Source: a virus. Taken from it: a DNA stretch of 28,465 bases. The stretch is taken from positions 1 to 28,465 of the IMG/VR virus record IMGVR_UViG_3300043395_001552. One strand, given 5' to 3'. The notes beneath the pieces are model-generated. The model had not been told where the DNA came from. It worked only from the letters and a program-made list of their open reading frames with translations, and searched no databases. Both the position numbers and the translations under genes were made by a program. Shown here piece by piece: positions 2,161-14,850 of this stretch (position 1 is its first letter; the number at the start of each line of letters is the position of its first letter).

Positions 2161-3456
2161 ATGGCTATATTTGCACAAGATTTTGATTTAGAAGCGGTAG
2201 ATATTATTGCCGACAACGGAGAAGCATTCAAGATTAAATATCTTGTTGTTGAACTCAATTTTTTTGAGGACATTTTTTCATTTTCATGTTCTGGTAATGT
2301 TGTTATTAAAGATGCTATCGGTATCATCGAAAAATTGAAGCTTGATGGTTCAGAAATTATACAAATAACATATGGCAAAACAAAAGATTCCGCCAAGGTC
2401 GAAAGAAAATTCAGACTGTATAAGGTTGGTAACAGAACTCCAGTGGGAAACAAATTTGTAGAAAATTACACATTACATTTCACATCTGAAGAATTGTTTT
2501 TGTCGGAACAATTAAAAATATCAAAATCTTTTTCTGGTATGACAATATCGGAAATGATTTACAAAATAATGGGTGATAGCTTTGAAAACAACGGTTTAAA
2601 TGCGGATAGAGACAGAATAAAAATACAACCATCATATGGATTGTATGATATGTTGGTTCCAAAATTAAAACCTTTTGAAGCTATAAGTTGGTTATCAAAC
2701 TATGCGATACCTGAAGAAGGTGCTGGTGCTGACATGGTTTTCTTTGAAAACAAGAACGGTTTTTATTTTGCATCAATTCGTTCTTTGTTTAATAATAATC
2801 CTGTAACCACATACAAATACCAACCATCAGACTTCAATGAATCAAAACTTGAAAATTTATACACAATACTGAATTATGAATTTGTAAAAACATATGATTC
2901 ATTGGAAGCAACAAAAGCGGGATTGTTTGCGAATAGATTGATTTCTATTGATCCATTGTCGAGAACAAAAACGGTAACAGACTTTAACAAAGGTGCATTA
3001 CCAGGATATCCATCATACGGAACCTCTCAAAACAGATTTGGAAAATATTCCGAGGAAATGTATGAAAGTAATCTGAAGTTGGTGTTTACGAATTCTTCTC
3101 AGGTAAATGAACAATATATAAACCAAAGTCCAGGAAGTATTGCAAAAAACATTCGTATCGAAACATTTGTGCCACACAGAACAGCACAAATCGGTTTAGC
3201 TAACTATACAGTTATGAAAGCCATAGTTCCAGGAAATAGTAATTTGGTTGCTGGACAAACATTGGACATAAATTTGAACTCTATTAGTTCAAAAGGTTCA
3301 AATGATGTGACAGAGGACACATTCTATTCTGGTAAATATCTAATTACTGCTGTCAGACACATAATACAAACACAAGGTGTGTATCAAACTGTTTTGGAAT
3401 TGGCCAAAGATACTGCTTCTATGGACAATTATTCAAGTCAAGCGTTTGCAATATAA
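2161..3456 (+). CDS. 27: Baseplate hub protein, gp27-like
   Basis: This 431-residue protein is probably the hub ring on which the spike is mounted (T4 gp27 is 391 residues). The N-terminus is beta-rich, and the C-terminal part shows a pattern common to phage hub proteins: PGNSNLVAGQTLDI near residue 360, then YSGKYLITAVRHII, then YQTVLELAKD near residue 415. In gpD/gp44/gp27-type hubs these strands belong to the tube-like domains facing the tail tube. The gene lies directly before the OB-fold spike gene, so hub and spike are encoded side by side. In T4, gene 27 is in a separate cluster. Sequence similarity to T4 gp27 itself is not obvious by eye, so the name rests on pattern and context. Confidence 0.7.
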   Translation: MAIFAQDFDLEAVDIIADNGEAFKIKYLVVELNFFEDIFSFSCSGNVVIKDAIGIIEKLKLDGSEIIQITYGKTKDSAKVERKFRLYKVGNRTPVGNKFVENYTLHFTSEELFLSEQLKISKSFSGMTISEMIYKIMGDSFENNGLNADRDRIKIQPSYGLYDMLVPKLKPFEAISWLSNYAIPEEGAGADMVFFENKNGFYFASIRSLFNNNPVTTYKYQPSDFNESKLENLYTILNYEFVKTYDSLEATKAGLFANRLISIDPLSRTKTVTDFNKGALPGYPSYGTSQNRFGKYSEEMYESNLKLVFTNSSQVNEQYINQSPGSIAKNIRIETFVPHRTAQIGLANYTVMKAIVPGNSNLVAGQTLDINLNSISSKGSNDVTEDTFYSGKYLITAVRHIIQTQGVYQTVLELAKDTASMDNYSSQAFAI

Positions 3457-3468
3457 TGAGAGAAATAA

Positions 3469-3798
3469 ATGGAAAAATTTTTAGGAAAAGACGGTTTTAT
3501 ATGGTGGGTCGGAGTAAATGAATTTAGAGGTGATCCTCTAGGCCTTGGTAGATGCAAGGTCAGAATTTTTGGATGGCACACCGACAATATGTCCGAACTA
3601 CCAACAGATAAGTTACCGTGGGCATTACCAATGTATCCGGTTAACAATTCTAAATCTTTTTCAGCACCTATGTTGGGTGAATGGATTGTTGGATTCTTTT
3701 TAGATGGAGAAGCAGGTCAAGCACCAGTAATGATGGGTGTTTTACCGGGAATACAAAGAGATCCACAAGAAGTTAATAAAAATCAGGAGTATTATTAA
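3469..3798 (+). CDS. 5: Spike OB-fold protein (gp5 N-terminal domain as a separate gene)
   Basis: The 109 residues correspond to the N-terminal OB-fold domain of T4 gp5, which plugs into the gp27 hub. The visible pattern is WWVGVNEFRGDPLGLGRCKV at residues 12-31, followed by an RIFGWHT strand, then PWALPMYPV near 50-58 and a long strand EWIVGFFLDG near 71-80 with VMMGVLPG near 87-94; the last part is typical of gp5/VgrG/gpV OB folds. The protein ends there, whereas T4 gp5 continues into lysozyme and beta-helix. Its stop codon shares one base with the ATG of the next gene (TAATG), so translation is probably coupled. A GAGA just upstream is only a weak ribosome site. Confidence 0.85.
   Translation: MEKFLGKDGFIWWVGVNEFRGDPLGLGRCKVRIFGWHTDNMSELPTDKLPWALPMYPVNNSKSFSAPMLGEWIVGFFLDGEAGQAPVMMGVLPGIQRDPQEVNKNQEYY
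3785..3789 (+). promoter_or_regulatory. Shine-Dalgarno AGGAG inside the OB-fold gene
   Basis: AGGAG lies eight bases before the ATG at 3798 and inside the 3' end of the OB-fold gene. It fixes the start of the helical protein and shows that this protein is made separately, not as a read-through fusion with the OB domain. Confidence 0.6.
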
Positions 3799-4637
3799 TG
3801 GCTTATGATTGGTCACAAGAACCCGCAGAACCTCAAGCAACGGATGTTCCTGTTGTAATTGGAAATCAAAATTTAACACCACCGCCAGGCGCAGAAAATG
3901 ATGGTCGTGTTGTAGGAACACCAACAATACCAGCAAGTGCAAGAGGTGTTGTAATCAATACCAGCAGAGGTAATAACAATAGAAAACTAACACATGTTTG
4001 TAGTTTTATTGATGAAATGCAAAAAAACATCTATTTGAAAAAATTTATCAAAGCAACTGCACAAGCTATCAGAGATGGTATTCGTTATGTAATGAAAACT
4101 TTGGGTTTCGCTGATAGAACTGGTGTTTTTGCATGGATTACAGCAAAACTTAAAGAAGCAGTTAGATGGTTGAAACAGGTTCAAAAGTTTTTAAAGGATG
4201 TAATCAATTTCGAAAGATATGTTTTAGCATACATAACCAAAATCAGAGCATTCATCACATGGATTCGTTCACTACCAGCAAGATTCATGGCACTATTAGC
4301 ACAATGTTTGACCAAATTTCTTAAATTGGTTGGTAGCGTTTTAACAGATTTCTTTAAAGAATTAACAGCTGGGCCAGACAACGGTTTTGGTGCTTTAATT
4401 TCAGAAACAAAAAATCTAATATCAAATACAGTGACAACTGTTAAATTGGCAACAACCGCAGCTGCTGGTGCAGTAACAATTGCGGGTATGGCAACCACAG
4501 GTTTGATGGTGCCAGCATCGGCCGCAGATTTAAAAGCTGCAAATAAAACGATTGCTGCATATGAAGCTTCATTGCCATCAAATGCTTCGGTTGCTGCAAG
4601 TATTGCTCCTTCACCACAGAAAAAATCGAAACCTTAA
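3798..4637 (+). CDS. Basic helical protein in the lysozyme position of the split spike
   Basis: I do not recognise this 279-residue protein. Residues 1-60 are Pro/Gly/Asn-rich and probably extended. Residues about 66-190 look almost wholly helical, with spaced Trp, Phe, Lys and Arg residues (AVRWLKQVQKFLKDV near 121-135, TWIRSLPARFMALLAQ near 154-169), giving basic amphipathic helices. Residues 217-243 are an uncharged Ala/Thr/Gly/Val-rich stretch that could sit in a membrane. The C-terminus is Ala/Ser-rich and ends in a Lys cluster. It lies between the OB gene and the needle gene, exactly where T4 gp5 carries its lysozyme domain, but shows no lysozyme catalytic pattern. It may be a structural or membrane-active hub part, a tape-measure-like factor, or a chaperone; none of these is proven. 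Confidence 0.8.
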   Translation: MAYDWSQEPAEPQATDVPVVIGNQNLTPPPGAENDGRVVGTPTIPASARGVVINTSRGNNNRKLTHVCSFIDEMQKNIYLKKFIKATAQAIRDGIRYVMKTLGFADRTGVFAWITAKLKEAVRWLKQVQKFLKDVINFERYVLAYITKIRAFITWIRSLPARFMALLAQCLTKFLKLVGSVLTDFFKELTAGPDNGFGALISETKNLISNTVTTVKLATTAAAGAVTIAGMATTGLMVPASAADLKAANKTIAAYEASLPSNASVAASIAPSPQKKSKP

Positions 4638-4639
4638 TT

Positions 4640-5515
4640 ATGTCAGACGATACCTCTATTCAATCACCACCAGGTGATAATACTTGGACAGAACCAGAAT
4701 CTGCGGCCAATACATATTATCAACCTGTATATCCTTACAATAATGTGACACAAACAGAAGCTGGTCACAAGTTTGAGATGGACGACACACCTACTAGAGA
4801 ACGTGTTTGTTTATCACACAGAACAGGAACATTCATTGAAATGCATCCAAATGGTGATGAAGTCCATAAGGTCTATGGTAATGGTTTCACAATCATAGTT
4901 TCAAACAACAATGTTTTGATTGGTGGTGATTGTAATATCACGGTTAATGGAAATTGTAATTTGGAAGTCTTAAAGGATTACAACATTCAAGTTGGTGGAA
5001 ATTACAATTTACAGGTCAAAGGTGAAACAAATATTAGAGGAATTGGTGAAATAGACATTTTGGGTGATAGTGATGTTAGAGTTACAGCCGATGAAAATTT
5101 TGGTGGTTCACTCTATATTGGCGCAGCCGACCACATTTCTATTGCATCAGATTTAAATGTTGGTGGTTCAATCCATGCTGATACAATTCATGCAGAATCC
5201 AGAGTAACTGCTGGTAGTGGTGTCTTTGCTGGTGATGCAGGATTCACAACTTCTGGTGGAGTTTCTGCTGGATTCCCAACACCAATGTCACCGGTTGCAG
5301 TTCCGGGGCAGATTAATGCTGTCGGAACAATTAATGCTGTTGTTTCAGTAAATGCGCCTTTGTGTAATTTTAGTTTAGCAAAACTTGGTATTATGGATGC
5401 GGTTTTGATGGCAGACCAAGTTAATTCACAAATCTTTAATACACATTTTCATGGAAACGGAAATATGGGTTCACCAACAACGAACCCAATATCACCTCCG
5501 TTTGTGGGTTTATAA
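4640..5515 (+). CDS. Spike needle: beta-helical protein (gp5 C-terminal-like) with HxH tip motif
   Basis: This 291-residue protein is probably the membrane-piercing needle. Residues about 60-85 (LSHRTGTFIEMHPNGDEVHK, then VYGNGFTI) match the start of gp5/VgrG-type needles. Residues about 88-150 are short repeats of V/I-x-x-G-N/D strands (VGGNYNLQVKG), as in the T4 gp5 beta-helix. Asn/Gly/Ala-rich strands continue to about 240. Near the C-terminus H269-F-H271 within NTHFHGNGNMG, followed by a Pro-rich tail, resembles the metal-binding tip of P2 gpV and VgrG spikes. There is no lysozyme domain. The ATG follows the previous stop by two bases with no clear Shine-Dalgarno, so coupling is likely. 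The product should trimerise below the OB-fold protein. Confidence 0.82.
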   Translation: MSDDTSIQSPPGDNTWTEPESAANTYYQPVYPYNNVTQTEAGHKFEMDDTPTRERVCLSHRTGTFIEMHPNGDEVHKVYGNGFTIIVSNNNVLIGGDCNITVNGNCNLEVLKDYNIQVGGNYNLQVKGETNIRGIGEIDILGDSDVRVTADENFGGSLYIGAADHISIASDLNVGGSIHADTIHAESRVTAGSGVFAGDAGFTTSGGVSAGFPTPMSPVAVPGQINAVGTINAVVSVNAPLCNFSLAKLGIMDAVLMADQVNSQIFNTHFHGNGNMGSPTTNPISPPFVGL

Positions 5516-5527
5516 TTAGGAGTTAAT

Positions 5528-6322
5528 ATGGTAGCAGTGGCAAACGCAGCAGGTATCTGGCATTCATTCGGATACAATTTTGATGATCCAAATGGATGTG
5601 TGCAGGAATTATCTTCCGCAACGAAAGAACATTTGGATTCTATACCACCATTCATTACTGAATGGATGGCAAAAGACATAAGAGAAAATGATTTTGATGG
5701 TTATTATCAAAATCCTGTTCAAAGTGTTACGATGAACATTTATAATACAGCAAATGCAATTTATATTGCAACAACTGGTGTAACGAATTTGGCTAATGTG
5801 CATACTTCAGCTGGTATACTCATGGGTAATGCACAAACATTCCTAACCCATACATCAAAACAATCTGGTTTAATAGAATATGATGGCAGTGACAATCTTA
5901 CACCATACTTACAACCTGCACTAAGTGCTGGAAGAACAGCGATGTATATAACAAACCAAACGGATGGTATAACAAACAATGCACCTATGTTGGGATGTTT
6001 CTCTTGTCTTTTAATTGAACCACAGTTGATATCCAACACAACCACATTAATTACATATTCAAATGACATTTCTGGTAGTATATACCTAGGTTCATCCACT
6101 CTAACCGGTTCAGAAATAACTGAAATCGACACACATATTAAAAATCTGAATAATTTTATGTCATACAGACTCAATTCAGATTTAAATTTTTATAGTAATA
6201 TCAAACGACTTATTGATGGTTATAATAAAACCAAAAAACTTAATGCAGTCGGTGAAACAGAATCGTATTTAATCAACAACCTCATCGGAACAGCTAAAGC
6301 GAAAGCGAGACTTAATTCCTAA
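5528..6322 (+). CDS. Unrecognised protein between spike and gp25
   Basis: The 264-residue product matches no family I recognise. It starts after a good AGGAG (5518-5522). The N-terminus has GIWHSFGYNFDDPNGC; residues about 60-110 are Asn/Thr/Ala-rich and probably helical. Residues about 135-165 hold MLGCFSCLLIEPQ, two Cys separated by two residues in a hydrophobic setting. The C-terminal 65 residues (about 200-264) are a Lys/Asn-rich helical region. No signal peptide or catalytic motif is evident. It is the last gene before a 91-base gap with a new promoter, so it ends the hub/spike unit; a hub, spike-tip or assembly role is a guess from position. Confidence 0.75.
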   Translation: MVAVANAAGIWHSFGYNFDDPNGCVQELSSATKEHLDSIPPFITEWMAKDIRENDFDGYYQNPVQSVTMNIYNTANAIYIATTGVTNLANVHTSAGILMGNAQTFLTHTSKQSGLIEYDGSDNLTPYLQPALSAGRTAMYITNQTDGITNNAPMLGCFSCLLIEPQLISNTTTLITYSNDISGSIYLGSSTLTGSEITEIDTHIKNLNNFMSYRLNSDLNFYSNIKRLIDGYNKTKKLNAVGETESYLINNLIGTAKAKARLNS

Positions 6323-13470: not shown

Positions 13471-14850
13471 ATGGCAAATAAAAATATACTCACAAATAGT
13501 TCGAAGTTGTCGTTCATCGACCTTCTTTACTACGCACCTGTGTCTGTTGTTCCACCAGCAATTGATATTCCTCTGCACACATATTATTGTTTTCTAGCAA
13601 AACCTACACCATGGACGGATGAAAATGATCCGGCCACGCCAACATCCGATGTGAAATCATTGAAACAAATACAAAAAAATATGTTTGTTGCAAAACAAAT
13701 AAAGACTAGTGATATTTGTCCAGTTATAGAACGTGTTGATTGGACAGAAGATACAGTCTATGATTATTATCAAGATGATGTGGACATGTTGGAGAAAGAC
13801 GCCAACAGTTTCTTAACGAAAAAATTCTATGTTAAGAACAAATATGACCAAGTGTTTAAATGTTTGTGGAACAATAACGGAAGTGGTTCAACAAGAGAAC
13901 CTTATTTTGAACCAGGAACATATTCAGCCAATAAAATTTTCCAAGGTGATGATGGTTACAAATGGAAATTTATGTATACAATCGACACCGGTTTAAAACT
14001 GAAATTCATGGACAGAGAATGGATGCCAGTCCAAATTGGATCCAACACACCAAACCCATTAATTACTAGCGCAGGTGCGGGTAGTATTGATGCAATCAAT
14101 GTGGTGAACGGTGGTAACGGATATGATACTGTAAATGCTGTGGTCTACATAACAATTACCGGTGACGGCACAGGTGCTACCGCTGCAGCTAATGTGGAAA
14201 GTTTAGCTGATGGTGGTTCAATTAGAGATATTATTGTGGTCAATCCAGGTAGCAATTATACCTATGCAAATGTCACAGTTACATCCGCTATAGGTGGTAA
14301 TGCTGTGTTGCATTGGGCAACCTCACCAGTTGGTGGCCACGGTTTCGACTCCATTTCAGAGTTGGGTTGTGAACACATCATGTTAACTTGTGAATTTGAT
14401 GGTGATGAAAATGGTATTGTTCCAACAAACATCGACTATCACCAAGTTGGTATTTTGATGAACCCAACAACAAAACAATATAGTCCAAATCCTGCTAATG
14501 GTGCAATATACAGCACGACTACAAACATTATTGTTGCTCCTGGTTCTGACGCAGGCTTTACCCCAGATGAATTTGTATTTCAGGGTTCAGAAACAAGCCC
14601 AACATTTTATGGAACTGTTTTAAACTTTGAGTCTGATTCCAATATGATTAGGCTCATAAATACATCAGGAACTCCATCAAATAACAGTCCAATATTTGGT
14701 CAATCGTCAACGACAACAAGAACATTATTGTCACACAACACTCCAAATTTTGCAGTCAATTCGGGTTATCTAATTTATGTTGAGAATAGAACTGGTGTTC
14801 AAAGAAGTGACGATGGTATAGAACAATTCAGATTCGTATTAGGATTCTAA
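13471..14850 (+). CDS. 8: Baseplate wedge protein gp8
   Basis: The 459-residue protein is longer than T4 gp8 (334). The N-terminal half shows the gp8 pattern: YYCFLAKPTPWTDENDP near residue 38, then IERVDWTEDTVYDYYQ near 86 (T4 has RRDWGDTRYPDPY), and GDDGYKWKFMYTI near 160 (T4 GDGYVWEYLFEI). Residues about 203-282 are an inserted Gly/Tyr beta module (VVNGGNGYDT, TGDGTGATAAANV, NPGSNYTYANV) absent from T4 gp8 and similar to those in gp6 and gp7. gp8 forms dimers that lock gp7 and gp10 in the T4 wedge. The gene lacks a Shine-Dalgarno sequence and follows an AATAAATA box by four bases. Confidence 0.85.
   Translation: MANKNILTNSSKLSFIDLLYYAPVSVVPPAIDIPLHTYYCFLAKPTPWTDENDPATPTSDVKSLKQIQKNMFVAKQIKTSDICPVIERVDWTEDTVYDYYQDDVDMLEKDANSFLTKKFYVKNKYDQVFKCLWNNNGSGSTREPYFEPGTYSANKIFQGDDGYKWKFMYTIDTGLKLKFMDREWMPVQIGSNTPNPLITSAGAGSIDAINVVNGGNGYDTVNAVVYITITGDGTGATAAANVESLADGGSIRDIIVVNPGSNYTYANVTVTSAIGGNAVLHWATSPVGGHGFDSISELGCEHIMLTCEFDGDENGIVPTNIDYHQVGILMNPTTKQYSPNPANGAIYSTTTNIIVAPGSDAGFTPDEFVFQGSETSPTFYGTVLNFESDSNMIRLINTSGTPSNNSPIFGQSSTTTRTLLSHNTPNFAVNSGYLIYVENRTGVQRSDDGIEQFRFVLGF

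Follow-up and report, generated by a model that had tools for sequence, protein, structure and literature searches.

The cell-piercing spike of bacteriophage T4 is built on gp5 (PDB 1K28, 5IV5), the product of one gene, which has an OB domain at one end, a lysozyme in the middle and a beta-helix needle at the other end, and which docks on the hub as a trimer and is tipped by the PAAR protein gp5.4. T4 gp5 is cleaved at Ser351/Ala352 during maturation and its needle is a separate chain afterwards (PMC3004832), so that a non-covalently mounted needle is not in itself new. Several departures from the T4 plan are also already known. The gp5 of Vibrio phage KVP40 is accepted as gp5 though it is without lysozyme, cyanophages likewise have gp5 proteins without lysozyme, gp5 is split between two genes in Methylophilales phage Melnitz EXVC044M, and spikes of the P2 gpV type are metal-tipped, with a His-x-His motif near the C-terminal end and iron held on the axis of the trimer. 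In Anabaena myophage A-1(L) (PDB 8KEA) the spike is without enzyme and the wall-cutting domains are found in the hub, another baseplate protein (PMC10966104).

Here we analyse a virus record of 28,465 bases, itself a fragment, the whole of which is referred to as the window. The likeness of its spike locus to T4 gp5 lies in the two ends, an OB domain at one and a beta-helix needle at the other. It differs from T4 gp5 in that the spike occupies three genes, the protein between the two ends is predicted to be helical, no PAAR protein was found and the needle ends in HxH.

RESULTS

The two ends of gp5 are encoded by separate genes

The baseplate genes of the window follow a T4-type order: gp4 (minus strand), gp48, gp53, hub, OB, middle, needle, a 264-aa protein, gp25 and gp6. 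The three reading frames of 109, 279 and 291 residues that the initial annotation had assigned to the spike were confirmed in length and position, as were the AGGAG ribosome-binding site of the middle gene (3785..3789, plus strand), 8 nt ahead of its ATG, and the TAATG in which the OB stop and the middle start overlap (3796..3800, plus strand). The needle ATG lies 2 nt past the middle stop. Upstream of OB, in a gp27-like position, the hub gene (2161..3456, plus strand) encodes a product matching phrog_350 'tail protein' (E 8e-75), with which, by analogy with T4, the OB piece would be expected to dock. Elsewhere in the window, positions 13471-14850 encode a gp8-like protein (Phage-Gp8 E 1e-6) with a BLAST match to the window gp6 at 38% identity, perhaps reflecting a shared domain.

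The OB-domain protein (109 aa; 3469..3798, plus strand) is the counterpart, in a separate gene, of the hub-binding N-terminus of gp5. It matches gp5 N-termini in phrog_694 (E 6e-29) and Pfam Gp5_OB at E 2.9e-5, just under the cut-off, and a profile of its family (20 rows) aligns with T4 gp5 residues 6-107 (E 3e-12). The needle protein (291 aa; 4640..5515, plus strand) corresponds to the C-terminal beta-helix; it matches phrog_430 positions 317-457 (E 1e-37), and its family profile (32 rows) aligns with T4 gp5 residues 372-497 (E 9e-36), the next matches being VgrG and the central spike of A-1(L). This confirms the claim that the OB fold and the needle are carried by separate genes, matching the N- and C-terminal parts of gp5, the needle matching VgrG as well. 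The part of T4 gp5 matched by neither product, approximately residues 108-371, comprises linker, lysozyme and linker. Given the cleavage of T4 gp5 at 351/352, the needle gene of the window starts near the start of the T4 needle chain.

Comparison with three relatives (L001, L005 and L007) gave dN/dS of ∼0.08-0.18 for the OB, middle and needle genes, indicating purifying selection. The OB-middle-needle order recurs in dozens of metagenomic contigs, far beyond chance, and the OB/middle junction differs among them, being an overlap, a 1-nt gap, a 38-nt overlap or interrupted by an extra ORF.

The needle has an HxH end

PAAR was absent from the window and from the related records G001-G004, all of which may be fragments; it was found in KVP40, avDM6, HTVC008M, Mosig and, weakly, Melnitz. 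HxH was present near the C-terminal end in 32/32 aligned needles, at residues 269-271 of the window protein, and was absent from the single-chain gp5 proteins compared. The needle probably ends in a His-x-His tip that stands in for a PAAR protein and that, by analogy with P2 gpV, may be a built-in metal tip. The gene following the needle encodes a conserved 264-aa protein (5528..6322, plus strand), which adjoins the needle in nearly all relatives, lies between needle and gp25 and occupies the place of the PAAR gene in other T4-like phages. The window protein had no match in phage records or PHROGs; it is a putative member of the spike.

The middle protein belongs to a new family

Profile searches, an IMG/VR family alignment and AF2 modelling place the middle protein (279 aa; 3798..4637, plus strand) in a new family of predicted helical proteins. 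It had no Pfam match, no tblastn match in phage records and no convincing PDB match, and its PHROG matches were weak, the best being a tape-measure profile (E 0.006); some other members of the family also match tape-measure profiles weakly. A match to known glycan-hydrolase families was sought and none was found, in agreement with the initial annotation, which had seen no lysozyme pattern here. The family, built from IMG/VR relatives, has invariant H66, C68, R92, P160 and C170, and the closely related L007 protein is 74% identical to that of the window. An alignment-based scan for the family gave nothing because it is without conserved stretches, and the records of KVP40, avDM6, ACG-2014g, HTVC008M, Melnitz, Mosig and S-WAM2 gave no match to the family profile.

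The description of this protein as basic and helical stands in part. The window protein is indeed basic (pI 9.9), but the family spans pI 4.7-9.9, and the AF2 model (33-row alignment) consists of helices, but at a pLDDT of 45.6, too poor for a fold search.

The middle protein had further been described as unrelated to the spike parts on either side, and this is not supported. In three relatives (L065/L103, which lie on one contig, L104 and L105) a member of the same family, recognized by the middle profile at E 1e-38 to 1e-40, is fused in frame behind OB, and the needle is the next gene after the fusion. It is chiefly from these fusions that the middle protein can be assigned to the spike; the preferred reading makes it one piece of the spike chain, formerly the middle domain of gp5. 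No single OB-middle-needle chain with this middle family was found, so that descent from a single-chain gp5 is inferred from the two-part fusions.

Spread of the three-gene order

We scored 75 loci with OB and needle, picked by similarity to the window OB or middle protein and including the window itself and two isolate references; four contigs are counted twice among them. Three adjacent genes were present in 57, and a further 14 had three genes with a gap of ∼210-260 bases, usually holding a small ORF, before the middle gene. The remaining loci were an OB-middle fusion (1/75), a long OB fusion without a recognizable middle (1/75) and the isolate references, which are single chains (2/75). 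The three-gene order is therefore not peculiar to this phage but ordinary in its close relatives and the rule in the clade (71/75 loci), but not for T4-like phages at large. The middle gene is present almost wherever OB and needle are separate. The gp6 tree supports the clade at 98/96 and scatters the fusion rows, so that fusion or fission occurred more than once.

Other arrangements were seen in the course of this survey. In deep-branching members of the clade, a conserved ORF of ∼70-78 aa separates OB from middle (L012:640-851, L059:6333-6549, L064:4422-4649, L072, L073, L076 and L079); it is His/Cys-rich, with an HCHxD..EHHAE motif in several. At L083:294-2099, an Ala-rich, apolipoprotein-like helical stretch of ∼490 residues is fused to OB; it shows no detectable similarity to the middle family and may be a helical replacement of independent origin. 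Marine relatives L111-L118 have tandem gp5 genes, the products being 270-278 aa without enzyme and 501-504 aa with Phage_lysozyme (E 3e-17), as at L112:3986-4798 and L112:4831-6345.

A candidate wall-cutting enzyme lies elsewhere in the tail cluster of relatives

Phage_lysozyme (PF00959) had no match in the window record or in relatives G001-G004, which, together with the three frames, bears out the earlier view of a split spike lacking lysozyme; M15 (PF08291) was not found in the three-gene records tested. The relatives checked encode a protein of ∼540-615 aa (790 aa in G002) upstream of gp4, beside the tail tube and gp26. The start (MKLFGNKKE in many) and end (DDRPAHQRK) of this protein are constant and its centre differs. 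Examples with these constant ends and an exchangeable centre are L121:4900-6648 and L160:5255-7099 (both minus strand); the centre is SLT in L148:5995-7716 (SLT E 3e-11; phrog_4067 transglycosylase), VgrG3-like in L142:5995-7731 (E 1e-4, below cut-off) and GH19 in the contig of L007 (E 1e-6, above cut-off). In some of these proteins the centre has no assigned family, and an AF2 model (7 rows) reached a pLDDT of 37.3, too poor for a fold search. The pattern suggests that close relatives exchange this domain rapidly. This gp26-side hydrolase presumably sits in the virion. The suggestion that another enzyme opens the wall thus finds support in relatives that share the spike (SLT, GH19, VgrG3-like), while the window itself stops just short of the place of that gene. 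Hydrolase_2 was found in G001, G002 and G004, but it also occurs in G006, whose gp5 has lysozyme, and is therefore probably the endolysin (phrog_938) rather than the tail enzyme.

DISCUSSION

It is likely that the locus encodes a T4-type gp5 spike in three pieces, in which a helical middle protein stands in for the lysozyme and digestion of the wall is left to a separate tail protein. In such a spike, the OB piece would cap the hub and the beta-helix piece would form the needle, while the 279-aa helical protein, once the central domain of that chain, would stand at the place of the T4 lysozyme. The adjacent, translationally coupled genes may serve to deliver the parts together, in a predicted 3:3:3 assembly on the hub. 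If the parts do assemble, mounting of the needle by contacts between separate proteins, as the initial annotation proposed, would follow. The needle would end in a His-x-His tip of its own, with no PAAR protein, and the wall would be digested by the different tail-cluster protein with its exchangeable hydrolase centre, the gene for which is seen in relatives and the product of which we would place in the virion. The middle protein most likely links the needle with OB and hub; it may also act at the membrane. A bolder version, which we regard as improbable, makes the middle protein the first of a new class of virion parts: a helical sleeve between hub and needle which, once piercing is done, would be released or inserted into the inner membrane and thereby open the channel for DNA, wall cutting again being left to the exchangeable tail hydrolase.

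Alternatively, the middle protein may be an assembly chaperone or adaptor that loads the needle onto OB and hub and would be missing from mature virions. As a separate, coupled gene between two spike parts, with a product matching no known structural folds, it resembles the adaptor proteins of type VI secretion, whose genes adjoin that of VgrG. However, the OB fusions in three relatives would fix such a chaperone permanently in the spike, and the middle gene is kept almost wherever OB and needle are separate; we consider this role unlikely.

It is also conceivable, at a considerably lower probability, that the middle protein is a peptidoglycan-cutting enzyme of unknown fold that has replaced the gp5 lysozyme in place. 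It sits exactly where the T4 lysozyme would be, and its invariant H, C, R and C residues might be taken for those of an enzyme, yet it matches no hydrolase family or fold, its composition points to long helices and its matches are tape-measure-like, and relatives with the same spike have SLT or GH19 in a neighbouring tail gene. Just as improbable is the view that the middle protein is outside the spike altogether, an operon neighbour such as a tape-measure-like or hub-plug protein: the weak tape-measure matches of some members and the ∼70-aa ORFs that can also lie between OB and middle would agree with this, but the OB-middle fusions and the fixed place between OB and needle argue against it. 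Finally, that one gp5 gene was broken by sequencing or assembly errors, for which the OB-middle fusions in some relatives and the gaps of ≤2 nt between genes might be cited, is refuted by the recurrence of the same breaks in dozens of contigs with varied junctions, by the AGGAG and TAATG at the junction and by purifying selection in each frame.

With a spike of three parts as the preferred reading, these uncultured T4-like phages present a core phage machine dispersed over several genes. Comparison of related phages with fused and with split forms offers a natural test of the contacts that hold the spike together, and of the role of the central domain where it is not a lysozyme. The results also suggest that gp5 homologues in Kyanoviridae and relatives, automatically named 'baseplate hub and tail lysozyme', are misleadingly labelled, since another gene can hold the enzyme.

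Relation to described spikes

The KVP40 gp5 is without lysozyme, like the spike of the window, and is so annotated in its record; the gp5 proteins of the Pelagibacter phages HTVC008M and Mosig share this feature. Unlike the window, all three have a single chain of 350-421 aa with no middle protein, and a PAAR gene is present. In Melnitz the OB and needle genes overlap by one base, and their products are named in the record as OB domain protein and baseplate hub/tail lysozyme. Unlike the window, Melnitz has two genes, no helical middle protein and a peptidase-like (VanY/M15) segment on each part; the VanY/M15 segments (L093:8364-9404 and L093:9404-11407) are weak by Pfam, with the expected motifs seen by eye. 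In A-1(L) the central spike is matched by the needle profile, with OB and a beta-strand part in one short chain, and, unlike in the window, no middle protein is described.

In the cyanophages S-SKS1, P-SSM2, S-SRM01 and S-CAM7, gp5 has OB followed by a helical region and no lysozyme match, and a separate small gene after gp5 gives weak needle-like matches. This arrangement may be another two-gene split of gp5, less certainly so than in Melnitz, and it differs from the window in that OB and the helical part are in one chain. In S-SM1, gp5 is again without lysozyme but is a single 850-aa chain, and Phage_lysozyme (E 4e-16) is found in a hub-cluster gene after gp26 and gp51. Outsourcing of the enzyme therefore has a precedent, although this 'lysozyme murein' is another, larger protein than the gp26-side enzyme protein of the relatives.

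More generally, in cyanophage (Kyanoviridae) gp5 the place of the middle protein, after OB and before the needle, is taken by a long helical region. The hhalign comparison of the middle protein with this region gave 46%. A search with the region ranked middle-family ORFs at the top (AUC 0.97), but this apparently strong homology failed a reversed-sequence control: reversed sequences scored alike on average (7.4 bits forward against 7.1 reversed), the best forward score being 27 bits (L105) and the best reversed 16. A fragment of L105 matches the cyanophage gp5 profile phrog_694 in the right place (E 2.5e-4), but tape-measure profiles score better. The middle protein and the cyanophage helical region may share a common descent. 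No description of a three-gene gp5 was found in the literature searched (open-licence papers). Compared with the described systems, the three-gene form, the middle family and its repeated fusion or fission are, as far as the sources searched show, new, as are the swapped-centre hydrolase beside gp26 and the contrast between PAAR and HxH tips.
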